A stretch of 64,000 bases of DNA from Umbelopsis ramanniana AG (taxonomy: Eukaryota; Mucoromycota; Umbelopsidomycetes; Umbelopsidales; Umbelopsidaceae): contig NW_026252172.1 of NCBI RefSeq assembly GCF_025399195.1, positions 1-64,000 on the forward strand, written 5' to 3'. Made by a program: the position numbers and the translations under genes. How positions within the stretch are numbered: the first letter of the stretch is position 1; each line of letters opens with the position of its first letter. Shown piece after piece: positions 30,039 to 40,624 of the stretch. Under the pieces are notes generated by a model. It was given only the letters and a program-made list of their open reading frames with translations, had not been told where the DNA came from and did not search any database.

Positions 30039-32086
30039 CTAAGCCTGTGACTCGGCGTCCGCCTTATTTGCGTGCTCTACCTCCTTGACATCATCAATTT
30101 TCTTGTCCTCATCGGCTGTATTGGCTTCACCGGCGGCCGTGACCTCGTCGTTGCCAAGCTTGTCATGCTCAATACGATCCTGCTGATCTTGCTCAATTTC
30201 CTCGCTGTAACCCGTGGTTTCCTTGGTGGTAAAAGCAACCCAGTAGGCGCCAGGGAAAGAGATGAAGATGAGGACCCAGCAGGCAATCAAAAAGTGGAGG
30301 TATGGAACATGAGAAGCATCGACCTTCCAGCCTGATGCGGCGCCGGCGTTTTGAAAAGCTTTGAAAAAGCCGGTATACACACCCAAGGTCGCAGGTTCGT
30401 TGGAAAGTGTTCCAAGGACCCAATATATAAATGTTTGCCTGTTGAAAAGAATAAATAATTGGCACTCTAAATTTTGTCGACTACAACGCGTATACATACC
30501 ACATGCTATCAGCTAGACCAAAGCAAATATACAAGACAAGCTCGCCACCATAGTGAGGTCCACTGGTTAAATCCAAACGATCTTCAGCTGGAAGCTGTTC
30601 AGGATATTGACACATAATAAGTACAAGCTGCGATGTGTATGCATTAATCAAATATGAGAGGCTAGGAACTTACGCCAGTGCTGTATATTCCATACTGTAA
30701 CTGAGATATCAATGCACCAATCCAGACAATGTTGAAGAAAACAAACAAAGTAGAAACACCAGCAATGGCTCTTGTGCGGCGGGAAAGTCTCTTCGAATCC
30801 AAAAGACGAGAAAAGATGACGGACCCTAACATCTGACTGCCCCAGTAGAGAGCTCCGTTCAAACCTCTAGTGCGCACATTGAAAAGTGCTCCGTTGACCT
30901 GACAGCGTCATTAGAACATGACCTTAGTTACGTTTCATGTAGATGAGTGAACACTTACTGCGTCGAACTGGTATGAATACACAAAGTTACTGGAATAGAA
31001 AAATGGGATCAAGGCAAGCAATTTTGGGTTGGCAAATCCGGCTTTGAAAATAGCGAGAGCGTCCACGAACAAGCTTTTGAGAGAAATGTTTTTTTCGTCC
31101 TTGTGAACAATCGCAACACGACTTCCATCCTTTCGTACAACCTTGTGCCTAGGTAGCATGAGAAGAGCAAAGCATGCACCGACAATCATTAAAATAGTGA
31201 AGGCGATGTAGGTTGAGTCTGCCAAATTGGGTTGATTGTCAGAAAAGGGTCTCCGACTGTAGTTATTTTACAGGTCCACTTACCGCTCACTTTCCCAGCA
31301 GTAGAGTTGAAATTGATCCCGAAACTAATGATACTTCCCAGGAATCCTCCAAGATTGCTTTTGAAGTATGTGTTACAATTCGTTATTCCATGACCGCTCA
31401 TAAGAATTGAAAGGTGTTTTCACTCACAAGATGACCCAAAAAATGGCAATGGCTTTTCCCTTTTCTGCCTCTACAGGATAGGAAATCATGATAGAGCCTT
31501 GGCAAATCCAGAACATTTGGGCACCAATACCTAATAGTGCACCAGCAGCAATACAGAAGCCTCTGGATTGAATGTGCTAAAGGGGTGGGGAAAATCAGCT
31601 GGTGTGTGTGACATCACATGAATCAAAGCATAGCGACAAACAACATACACCGTATGCCCAAAGCGAGCCCATATACAAGGGATAAGTCAGTCCACCCACA
31701 AACATGGAGTAGTTTCCAAGGTATTTGAAAGTGAGCGGGGCAATAAACAGGGAACTAAAGATACCCGCGACATAGAGCGCGACGTTGGCATTGGCAGCAA
31801 CCGATGGATCAACCATACCTTCCAAGTAAAGTGTTTGTTAAAAATTTATGTACTGAATATTTTAGTTGTGTATGCATCGTTTATCAAAGGCACGGCCATA
31901 CCTGCTGCACCCATTCCCTGGTAAAAACCCAAGTTGTCAGTTTGCATGTTTTACAATTTGCAACATATAAAATGAGCCGCCACATACCGTGATGGTGTTG
32001 TATAAACCTGGCAAGCAAAAAGCCACGAAGCCGACCATGGCAACTTGTGTCATCGGCCGGCTGTACACCTTCATGAATCGATTCAT
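30039..32086 (-). CDS. UNC93-like major-facilitator membrane protein
   Basis: Nine exons: 32086-31988, 31917-31902, 31818-31649, 31576-31428, 31357-31284, 31218-30959, 30898-30674, 30627-30500 and 30438-30039; 506 residues. About eleven to twelve hydrophobic segments are visible. The N-terminus (YSRPMTQVAMVGFVAFCLPG), the loop SYPVEAEKGKAIAIFWVIF and NLGGFLGSIISFGINF match the UNC93/DUF895 group of the major facilitator superfamily common in fungi. The C-terminal tail is long, charged and Asp/Glu/Lys-rich, so probably cytosolic. Exon 2 is only 16 nt. Fungal members have no established substrate; animal UNC93 proteins regulate channels or Toll-like receptor trafficking. Function here is unknown beyond being a multispanning membrane protein. 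Confidence 0.88.
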
Positions 32087-32390: not shown

Positions 32391-34307
32391 TTAAAGTAAA
32401 GAAAGCGCTGCAGACATGGCAGCATTATCCACCACCACCAGCTTATCTAATGAAATTCCTTCTTTGGTCAGGGTCTGTATAACACTCTCCTGGTAAAACG
32501 AAGAGCCAGTCAAAAGCCCCCCGCCGAGAACTAGTGTATCTCCTTGCTGTATGACATATTGGGCAATTCTTGATAAGTTTGTCGCAGCGTGTGTCAATAT
32601 CTCCAATGACGTTGTACAACCGCCTTCTTGAGCACATGCTAGTACAATTTGAGCGAGTTTGACTATGCGAGCCTTGCGACTTGATTCATCTCCATCATAA
32701 ATCGATTTGATAAACTGAACTCGGTCAGTACATCCAAGTTCACTTAAAACTCGCTTGCTGAGTTCAGTTGGAGAGCATCGCTCATCGATGACACTACCAG
32801 TGTGCTGAATTGCGGCTCGGCCAATGTCCCAGCCACTTCCTTCGTCGCCGACAAGATAGCCCAGTCCTCCGCTCCGTCTGATTCGTTCTCCTGAATCAGC
32901 ATATCGAATGGCGATGGAGCCTGTGCCAGCAATGAGAACAGCACCTTCTTTGCCACCAAGGCCAGAAGCTAAGAGGTCGACATCATTTGTCACTCTGATT
33001 TTGGAGTCATCAATGACGCTAAATAGCTTTGCCAATTCTTGTTTGAGATGGTTTTGAGATTCAATGGCATCACAACCGGCAGATCCTATCCAGATAGCTT
33101 CAAAATTGGGAAGGCTACCAACTGAATTGCAGGCCAGACGGGTGACCTTCTCGATATTAGAAATAAACACAGATAATGGTGTAGTAGCAAAATTGGTGGA
33201 AGGAATATTGCTTTGTCCAACCACGTTTCCACTTTCATCCAGGCTGACAGCTGCCATCTTTGTGCCCCCGCAATCGATTGCAATATACCGGGCTTTGGAT
33301 TCCAATGGCTTCTCCTCTTCTGTACCATTCGCAGTGGATACTTGCAATTGCTTCTGCTCTTGCAACGCAGACCTTAGAACGCCATTATTTCTCTCGAGTA
33401 ACAGAATGGCATCTGCAACACTGAGTCCTGTCATACAGACGAGAATGGATAATTTAACTTGGCCATTGCATGCTTGCATCAGCTGATCGATTTTGGCATC
33501 ATCCATGACGATGATATCCTGGCTGCCCGGAAGATGACCCTCAGAGCCAACGGCCATTTTCACTATTCTTCTCGATCTTGCGATGAGTTTTTCATTTGAG
33601 GCTTTGACATCCACCATAAGATTACCCAATGTTTTCCCCAATCTAATCATAACGCCAGTTGACAGCATATTAAGTACTAGTTTCGTGGCTGTACCTGCTT
33701 TCATTCTGGTCGATCCAGTTACAACCTCAGGGCCGCATACAGGGGAAATCATAATATCCACAGCTTCTTCTAGTGCAATACCTTTGTTGAATGAAATTCC
33801 AACCGTCAGGGCATGGCGCTTCTTAGCATGCGCAACGGATCCAAGAACATATGGTGTTCTTCCCGATGCTGCAATACCAACCAGAGTGTCATTTTCGGTG
33901 AGAGAGAATTGCTCCATGTCATAGTCTCCTTTCTCGAACGAATCTTCTACACCTTCAGCAGCTTTACGAATAGCAGCATCGCCTCCTGCCATCCAGCCGA
34001 TAACTTGATCTGGGTCAGTGCTGTAAGTTGGTGGGCATTCTGAGGCATCCACTACTCCGAGGCGTCCACTGGTACCACAGCCTACATAGATGAGCCTTCC
34101 GCCTGCTAGCATGCGTGGATATATTTGATCAATGGCCTTTGAAATAGAATTGAGTTCCTTCCTGACAGCAACAGGGACATACGCATCTTCGTCATTTATG
34201 ATCTCAAGCAATTCGCGAGTTGAAATGCTGTCAATGTTGGCAGACTTGGGGTTGGCCTGCTCTGTTGAAAGAACAGTGAGAAGCTTGGCTAGAGAATCGG
34301 AAGACAT
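32391..34307 (-). CDS. MurQ-kinase fusion: N-acetylmuramate 6-phosphate etherase + BadF/NAGK-type sugar kinase
   Basis: A single uninterrupted exon, ATG at 34307, 638 residues. Residues 1 to about 305 are a MurQ etherase: VGCGTSGRLGVVDASECPPT with the catalytic Glu at about 90, AAEGVEDS with the second Glu at about 118, GIAASGRTPYVLG, and CGPEVVTGSTRMKAGTATK. Residues about 340-638 are an ASKHA kinase: YIAIDCGGTKMAAV (phosphate 1), NDVDLLASG, LIAGTGSIAIRY (phosphate 2), GGLGYLVGDEGSGWDIGRAA, and the adenosine block LVLGGGLLTGSSF. In bacteria, MurQ converts MurNAc-6-phosphate to GlcNAc-6-phosphate and lactate. BadF/NAGK-type kinases such as clostridial MurK phosphorylate MurNAc and GlcNAc. The fusion could thus do both steps of peptidoglycan-sugar salvage in the cytosol. 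No introns among intron-rich neighbours suggests transfer from bacteria. Confidence 0.93.
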   Translation of the reverse strand: MSSDSLAKLLTVLSTEQANPKSANIDSISTRELLEIINDEDAYVPVAVRKELNSISKAIDQIYPRMLAGGRLIYVGCGTSGRLGVVDASECPPTYSTDPDQVIGWMAGGDAAIRKAAEGVEDSFEKGDYDMEQFSLTENDTLVGIAASGRTPYVLGSVAHAKKRHALTVGISFNKGIALEEAVDIMISPVCGPEVVTGSTRMKAGTATKLVLNMLSTGVMIRLGKTLGNLMVDVKASNEKLIARSRRIVKMAVGSEGHLPGSQDIIVMDDAKIDQLMQACNGQVKLSILVCMTGLSVADAILLLERNNGVLRSALQEQKQLQVSTANGTEEEKPLESKARYIAIDCGGTKMAAVSLDESGNVVGQSNIPSTNFATTPLSVFISNIEKVTRLACNSVGSLPNFEAIWIGSAGCDAIESQNHLKQELAKLFSVIDDSKIRVTNDVDLLASGLGGKEGAVLIAGTGSIAIRYADSGERIRRSGGLGYLVGDEGSGWDIGRAAIQHTGSVIDERCSPTELSKRVLSELGCTDRVQFIKSIYDGDESSRKARIVKLAQIVLACAQEGGCTTSLEILTHAATNLSRIAQYVIQQGDTLVLGGGLLTGSSFYQESVIQTLTKEGISLDKLVVVDNAAMSAALSLL

Positions 34308-39038: not shown

Positions 39039-40624
39039 ATGTCCGTAGAAACGACAAAATCTCTACAGCCGTCCTTCATCAAGTCGCTACTACAAGTCTT
39101 TGCCAATGAATACATACTGATCTTGTCGTTGATCTTTGGAGGTTGCTGCAGTAATGTGTTTGCGCTGGAAATCCTGGTTGGGTAACTTACATTTCCTTTA
39201 AACTTCGTTCAACGATATATCTTCTACACTATTTGATATGCTGATTTGATCCTTTCTATAGTGATGCGCCAAAAAGTGGTATGTTCCTGAGCAATATCGT
39301 CACAGAGACAATATGAATGCTCAATTTGGCATGCCTTGAAATTAGCGTCTGTGCAACGTCTTGTTCTAACTGCTAATATTACTACAGGTCAATTAATCAC
39401 TCTCGGTCAGTTTATCTTTGTTGCTTTCGAAGGCTTGTTTCATCATGTGCAATGGCCAAGCGCGTCTGGATGCTGGTGGTGGCCAACTTTTCTACCATCA
39501 TTAAAACCTCGCGCTGTACCCATACAGCGATGGTTCATCTTGGTCGTTATATTTTACGTCGTCTCGGCTTTGAACAATATTGCTCTCGGCTACAATATAT
39601 CAATGCCGTTGCATATCATCTTCCGGAGCGGTGGCCTCATTGTAAACATGTTTTTGGGCTGGTTATTGCTTGGCAAAAGGTATGTCGTGTTTCATCTCGT
39701 TTGAAAGTCGCAAGCGGATTTACCACTTCTGCTGACGGATATTCAGATATTCAACCGGACAGGTGACGGCAGTCATCTTGGTTACAATAGGAGTTGTTTG
39801 GGCAACCATCGCTTCAACTAAGTCTGACAGCAAGGTAAGCATCCTTCCATAGTTCTACAGTATACAAATCAACGAGCCAACAAATTTTGCAGAAAGAGTC
39901 AGGGCCGTCGTCGAATTTTGCTTTGGGAATATTGATTTTGTCGATTGCAATGGTGCTTTCTGCTGGCTTGGGTCTTCTGCAAGAGATTACTTATCGCAAA
40001 TACGGAAAGGCTTGGAGGGAGGGTCTATTTTACACTGTAAGTATTGAAGATGGATGTCAGAAATAAGGGGACCGTGCAACTGGAGATATGTTTCTCATTC
40101 TGGCATATTTCCTTTAGCATGGACTATCACTTCCGATCTTTTTGTTTTTTTACAAGGACATCTGGAATCAAGTTCAGATTTACAATCAATCACCTTTGGT
40201 TTCCCCGCTACAGGTGGTTGAGAAACTGCCTTTCGCCAATGACTTGATCTCAATCATACCTACAAGCATTTTGGCTTCGTTGCAGATGCCAAAACTATGG
40301 TATTATCTCATAATGGACGTTTTGACCCAGTAAGTTACCATGGAAATGATGAAAGTTTTGTCAAAAATATATAATAATGGAGACATTGTCCACAGATACG
40401 TTTGCATTTCAGGGGTTAATCGAATGACAGCCATATCCACCTCACTGACGCTAAATTTAGTGCTTAATTTGCGAAAGTTTACATCGTTGGTGATATCTAT
40501 CGTGTATTTTAACAATGCATTTGATATGGGAGCCGTTTTTGGTTCAATTCTGGTATTCATTGGTACAATTCTGTATACCCAATCTGCATCCAGACCGGCA
40601 GCACCGGCTAAAAAGTCGCAGTAA
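39039..40624 (+). CDS. Nucleotide-sugar transporter, SLC35B4/Yea4 type
   Basis: Seven exons: 39039-39181, 39262-39278, 39388-39679, 39747-39834, 39893-40036, 40118-40329 and 40396-40624; 374 residues. About ten membrane segments are seen, starting with LILSLIFGGCCSNVFALEIL. The family blocks MPLHIIFRSGGLIVNMFLGW, GLGLLQEITYRKYGKAWREG and SGVNRMTAISTSLTLNLVLN fit the SLC35B/UAA group. Members carry UDP-GlcNAc or UDP-xylose into the ER or Golgi; yeast Yea4 supplies UDP-GlcNAc for chitin. The C-terminus is Lys-containing (APAKKSQ), compatible with ER retrieval. Exon 2 is 17 nt, which automated gene finders may miss. Confidence 0.9.

Follow-up and report, generated by a model that had tools for sequence, protein, structure and literature searches.

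What is a gene for handling the sugar of bacterial walls doing in a fungus? N-acetylmuramic acid (MurNAc) is the signature sugar of those walls, and to our knowledge fungi are not usually credited with its use. The first 64,000 nucleotides of contig NW_026252172.1 of Umbelopsis ramanniana AG (RefSeq assembly GCF_025399195.1), analysed here and termed the window, carry a gene in which a MurQ-type MurNAc-6-phosphate (MurNAc-6-P) etherase is joined to a sugar kinase. We consider it probable that the product is a bifunctional enzyme for salvage of peptidoglycan sugars, and that the fungal gene goes back to a bacterial fusion which entered the fungi early in their history and has since disappeared from some lineages.

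The fusion is a real, intact gene (Table 1). Its frame has no internal stop from ATG to the end, against 16–42 stops in each of the five other frames of the same stretch, and the single uninterrupted exon of 638 residues described in the first-pass annotation of this DNA therefore holds. The MurQ etherase and sugar kinase claimed there are indeed found in one protein, with TIGR00274 and PF01869 both above their cut-offs. Throughout the 22.8 Mb assembly (123 contigs) this gene is the only full MurQ match, second place reaching 23.5 bits, and the only match to the BadF-kinase family PF01869. No signal peptide was seen by eye and the protein is probably cytosolic; it is probably also enzymatically active.

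Table 1. The MurQ–kinase gene, its parts and an adjoining gene, in window coordinates
Feature	Position	Strand	Remarks
MurQ–kinase fusion coding sequence	32391..34307	minus	Complete; 638 aa plus stop; one open frame, ATG to stop
MurQ (MurNAc-6-phosphate etherase) domain	33351..34274	minus	Residues 12-319
Linker	33297..33350	minus	Residues 320-337; predicted local distance difference test (pLDDT) 70 (block 321-330), 74 (block 331-340)
BadF/NAGK/MurK-type sugar kinase domain	32394..33296	minus	Residues 338-638
E90 codon, MurQ catalytic Glu	34038..34040	minus	Invariant 121/121; E in 1nri, 4lzj, 4s12
E118 to E121 codons (E-G-V-E), second catalytic Glu region	33945..33956	minus	E118, E121 invariant 121/121
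D442 codon, kinase catalytic Asp (MurK D95)	32982..32984	minus	Invariant 121/121; mapped via human NAGK alignment and the available part of PMC10465942
UNC-93/MFS-type transporter, several exons	30039..32086 (far end approximate)	minus	PF05978 43.9 bits, hand-joined exon pieces

The MurQ half (residues 12–319) scores 347.7 bits against TIGR00274, the MurQ equivalog model (cut-off 302), and its fold, predicted with high confidence, is that of solved MurQ structures. The intact catalytic glutamates reported at first pass are confirmed: E90, E118 and E121 show no variation in the 121 aligned rows, which include the window protein itself and a shorter copy of it, and the E90 and E118/E121 regions align with the solved structures 1nri, 4lzj and 4s12. 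We take the catalytic glutamates of E. coli MurQ to be E83 and E114, with E90 of the window protein corresponding to E83. The bacterial enzymes of known structure (H. influenzae HI0754, 1nri and 4lzj; Yersinia enterocolitica, 4s12) have fold, length, catalytic glutamates and phosphosugar loops in common with the fungal half, which is 46% identical to 4lzj and to 4s12; they are stand-alone enzymes, whereas the fungal MurQ is fused to a kinase. In a comparison by half and by residue of the fusion rows (49 fungal, namely 38 named, the window protein and 10 assigned by tree, and 71 others, six of them named bacteria), MurQ was the slower-evolving half. It would be an etherase acting on MurNAc-6-P.

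The other half is, as first described, a complete BadF/NAGK-type kinase. Residues 344–614 match BcrAD_BadFG (PF01869) at 74.1 bits (cut-off 31.5), the catalytic aspartate D442 and the ATP loop G461-T-G-S464 are invariant in the same 121 rows, and the fold, again predicted with high confidence, matches solved sugar-kinase structures; the NagK_SO3507 equivalog is a distant match (91 bits, cut-off 370). The C-terminal kinase would phosphorylate MurNAc, and probably N-acetylglucosamine (GlcNAc) too, at O6 with ATP, and the N-terminal MurQ would then cleave the lactyl ether, converting MurNAc-6-P to GlcNAc-6-P and D-lactate; GlcNAc-6-P could go to NagA and NagB for catabolism, or to uridine diphosphate (UDP)-GlcNAc and chitin. 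Such a two-step conversion in one protein, already suggested at first pass, is likely by domain assignment and intact catalytic residues; both activities, the sugar of the kinase, the uptake of MurNAc and the physiological use are predictions. The fusion poses the question whether MurNAc-6-P is handed directly from kinase to etherase. The predicted model has a predicted template modelling score (pTM) of 0.59, which makes it uncertain how the two domains sit relative to each other, and this counts against our reading.

A fusion unique to this genome can be rejected, since relatives lie in several fungal groups and in bacteria. Among the matches listed in our homologue search (the best 120 of 3217), it occurs in Mucorales (Gongronella, Hesseltinella), Kickxellomycotina (Smittium, Furculomyces, Zancudomyces) and many Ascomycota, these being the groups to which we take the genera to belong. 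Six named bacterial fusions, from Gemmataceae, Limnoglobus and a Chloroflexota metagenome-assembled genome (MAG), share 37–40% identity with the window protein; they have its two domains in its order, and a branch of 97/97 separates them from the fungi. The bacterial affinity proposed at first pass thus stands, and that the fusion is a fungal invention is not shown, bacteria having the identical fusion in identical order. A contig scan with the fusion protein gave one match, to the kinase part only, in Armatimonadetes. One of the bacterial proteins, P0054 (Chloroflexota MAG, 942 aa), carries MurQ, a BadF-type kinase and AnmK (PF03702), possibly a three-enzyme chain for muramic-acid salvage.

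Trees were made from 40 of the 121 fusions for MurQ and for the full length, P0054 being trimmed to 660 residues in the latter, and from 39 for the kinase, P0054 being omitted for its extra AnmK part. Adding 26 of 120 listed single MurQ proteins gave a MurQ tree of 66 rows, and 30 of 120 listed single kinases a kinase tree of 69. The 20 rows termed fungal are 17 named fungi, the window protein and P0007 and P0078, assigned by a FastTree of all 121 fusions; the 20 termed bacterial are six named bacteria and 14 rows without a name. The full-length tree separates all fungal rows from the others (97/97); among them Mucoromycotina and Ascomycota form a group (96/95) that excludes Kickxellomycotina, which agrees with the species tree, and the FastTree has the same fungal versus bacterial split. 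A tree for each domain, as the first-pass annotation had advised, gave one clade of fungal kinases (99/97), adjoined by the fusions P0015 and P0035 and the single kinase P0251 (99/94). For MurQ it gave a group of Mucoromycotina and Ascomycota (98/84) that includes one single MurQ (P0152), with Kickxellomycotina placed apart from the other fungi, among single MurQs (94/86); one clade of fungal MurQ is not rejected by the approximately unbiased (AU) test (p 0.203).

Tree order does not support a recent transfer into Umbelopsis. The idea of an acquisition that is recent or peculiar to this genome is not supported, as several fungal groups have the fusion and tree order equals species order. By its sequence relationships the fusion is an old gene common to several fungal groups, with bacterial affinity, and the simplest account would be that a fusion already complete in bacteria was transferred once, at an early date, with vertical descent and losses thereafter. 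The direction, bacterium to fungus, we infer from how widely MurQ is distributed among bacteria rather than from the rooting of a tree, and losses in some fungal lineages are presumed. The lack of introns, taken at first pass as a sign of transfer, is real but lends transfer no more than mild support, because in early-diverging fungi 25% of background genes are intronless too, against more than 50% of xenologs (PMC11291939, in the part available to us).

Two features of the trees weigh against our reading: the separate place of Kickxellomycotina in the MurQ tree, and five kinase-only rows nested in the fungal kinase clade, one of them from the basidiomycete Flammula alnicola. Two of the five, P0320 and P0321, have Talaromyces as their neighbour in the tree and may be partial sequences of fusion proteins. 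The rows P0280 (Flammula alnicola), P0259 and P0272 suggest loss of MurQ with the kinase retained. Several independent transfers from bacteria, or transfers from fungus to fungus, would also accommodate the Kickxellomycotina MurQs, as well as the fact that the only named Mucoromycotina among the matches listed are Umbelopsis, Gongronella and Hesseltinella; against such a history stand the species order of the full-length tree, the repeated split in the FastTree, the single kinase clade and the AU result, and we regard it as unlikely.

The sugar of the kinase has also to be considered. The kinase half has the ASKHA fold, catalytic aspartate and small lactyl-pocket residues in common with MurK of Clostridium acetobutylicum (8zo3; 26% identity) and of Tannerella forsythia (8oqw, 8ow9; 20%), which are separate genes, unlike the kinase here. 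MurNAc use by T. forsythia MurK, encoded in a murTKQ operon, is ascribed to small residues 133–135 and T94, and Asn in place of T94 or Asp in place of I69 is argued to disfavour MurNAc; C. acetobutylicum MurK is termed MurNAc- and GlcNAc-specific (all from the accessible portion of PMC10465942). Mapped through the human NAGK alignment (NAGK G145 = MurK P134), MurK 133–135 correspond to G480-G481-L482, which are non-bulky and permissive for a lactyl group, a trait not exclusive to MurK, as human NAGK and the hexokinase of Sulfolobus tokodaii likewise have no bulky residue there. N441 and D413, at the T94 and I69 positions, are unfavourable to MurNAc by the published rule. They differ from T. 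forsythia MurK and equal C. acetobutylicum MurK, and since the latter carries Asn-Asp and Ala-Gly-Ala-Asp at the corresponding places of the alignment, the rule, as far as the excerpt of PMC10465942 gives it, does not rule MurNAc out. Neither sequence nor fold can decide between MurNAc, GlcNAc and a broader sugar range; the domain to which the kinase is joined, an etherase for MurNAc-6-P that retains its catalytic residues, speaks for MurNAc as the likely substrate.

N441 and D413 nevertheless count against MurNAc, and so does the broad-specificity hexokinase of S. tokodaii (2e2n/2e2o), which is tied in structural similarity to the kinase half and comes first in sequence similarity. This enzyme is archaeal, has no link to MurQ and has His at the place of N441 (PMC10465942, in part). 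The tie lowered our confidence in salvage of peptidoglycan sugars and raised it in a kinase chiefly for GlcNAc or for a broad range of hexoses and amino sugars, in which case MurQ would be a side activity or a sensor and the protein would serve fungal chitin turnover, not bacterial walls. The kinase-only relatives within the fungal clade would fit this, as would the title of the C. acetobutylicum MurK structure 8zo3, a GlcNAc complex. We judge it rather improbable all the same. The catalytic residues of MurQ are fully retained in the fusion, in the half that evolves more slowly. GlcNAc phosphorylation, moreover, looks separately covered in this genome, because hexokinase-type kinases adjoin NagB at two loci (G000 C6:456364-458809 and C35:26081-28890), pairs that presumably resemble the usual fungal GlcNAc-catabolism cassettes.

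That the protein resembles GKRP, and would sense sugar phosphates without catalysis, is suggested by the database label of its fungal relatives, 'glucokinase regulator family protein', and by a GKRP_SIS_N match above cut-off (65 versus 27 bits), but is very improbable. Vertebrate GKRP, which we take to comprise two SIS units and a lid and to regulate glucokinase, has matches covering both SIS units; in the fusion the second SIS (24.2 of 27 bits) and the lid (21.8 of 27.7 bits) stay below cut-off, and a kinase makes up the second half. The fungal proteins so labelled (Aspergillus, Penicillium, Onygenales and others) have the architecture and catalytic residues of the window protein, two Aspergillus rows with a kinase half merely ~32% identical to it. 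A GKRP-like regulator is rejected on domain scores and kept catalytic residues, and with it the earlier alternative of a GCKR-like protein that had lost them; the label is misleading.

Bacterial contamination of the assembly, a concern raised at first pass to which bacterial-type domains and the lack of introns might give colour, is rejected with near certainty: an adjoining multi-exon transporter and other eukaryotic-type genes share the 64-kb stretch (7 of 10 scanned neighbouring open frames belong to families, namely KH, peroxidase, RING-variant, protein kinase, UAA nucleotide-sugar transporter, SNAP and bZIP), the G+C content overall (GC, 0.464) and at third codon positions (GC3, 0.403) falls inside the span of values in seven neighbouring exons (0.408–0.494 and 0.38–0.525), and the closest named relatives among the best 120 of 3217 matches are proteins of Umbelopsis isolates (93%, 84% and twice 72% identity).

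Partners for salvage of peptidoglycan sugars are partly present in the genome. There are two genes for muramidases of glycoside hydrolase family 25 (GH25), a signal peptide being evident by eye in one of them, and one GH24 match. An intronless GH3 reading frame, 887 aa or longer (G000 C12:190569 on, L019), is NagZ-like, with a C-terminal acetyltransferase-like part by eye; it matches the N-acetyl-beta-D glucosaminidase 4zm6, presumably the Rhizomucor miehei enzyme, with E 1.5e-297, and NagZ/YbbD 4gyj with E 1.1e-77, and contains K-H-F-P-G-H-G-D-T, which we take to be the NagZ hallmark. NagB occurs at four loci, and FAD-oxidase_C proteins, which could oxidise D-lactate, on four contigs. Less favourably for the route, the NagA-like exons, at two main loci, each fall below the family cut-off, and NamZ, Amidase_2 and AnmK were not found in the genome; peptide removal from MurNAc and sugar uptake are a gap in the predicted route. 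A GH25 of Umbelopsis westeae has been expressed and showed activity towards peptidoglycan of Micrococcus and weak activity towards that of Lactobacillus (PMC7954357, available in part). As to the first-pass suggestion that the product feeds chitin synthesis, this is possible, but ordinary catabolism fits equally well because the genome has NagA-like and NagB genes. More tentatively, and with somewhat less confidence than doubt, a single ancient bacterial donor may be the source of the single-chain MurNAc kinase–etherase that fungi as far apart as Kickxellomycotina and Ascomycota have inherited. It would complete a eukaryotic salvage of peptidoglycan sugars that begins with secreted muramidases and a glucosaminidase of NagZ type and leads to GlcNAc-6-P; at least one basidiomycete would have retained the kinase alone.

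If so, bacterial necromass or living bacteria would be a source of carbon, nitrogen and chitin precursors for chitin-walled fungi. A bifunctional enzyme conserved in several fungal groups would offer a specific gene, deletable and assayable, for work on how fungi interact with bacteria and how necromass is turned over in soil, and its identity would correct the name 'glucokinase regulator'. The fungal fusion is already in databases under misleading names, its function predicted from sequence; a literature search covering few subscription journals found no functional study of it among the titles and abstracts listed. Bacterial-type MurQ is also reported from other eukaryotes, the free-living protists Naegleria and Bodo, for which digestion of bacterial walls is proposed; the excerpt seen speaks of the etherase and mentions no fused kinase (PMC7052976, which cites Veiga-da-Cunha 2009, a study that may treat fungi as well). 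A murQ gene is annotated in the Monascus chitin pathway (PMC9159588, in the portion available). Two surveys of transfers into fungi, to the extent that their main texts are available, contain no mention of muram, peptidoglycan, Umbelopsis or etherase (PMC11291939) or of muram, peptidoglycan, etherase or glucokinase (PMC11898892).

Downstream of the fusion, in tandem on the same strand, the UNC-93/MFS-type transporter starts 305 bp past the stop codon; the association is by position only, and the transporter is a candidate for co-regulation with the fusion. About 5 kb from the fusion, at 39291-39704 on the plus strand, lies an exon of a UAA-family nucleotide-sugar transporter (PF08449), by eye possibly of the UDP-GlcNAc type.
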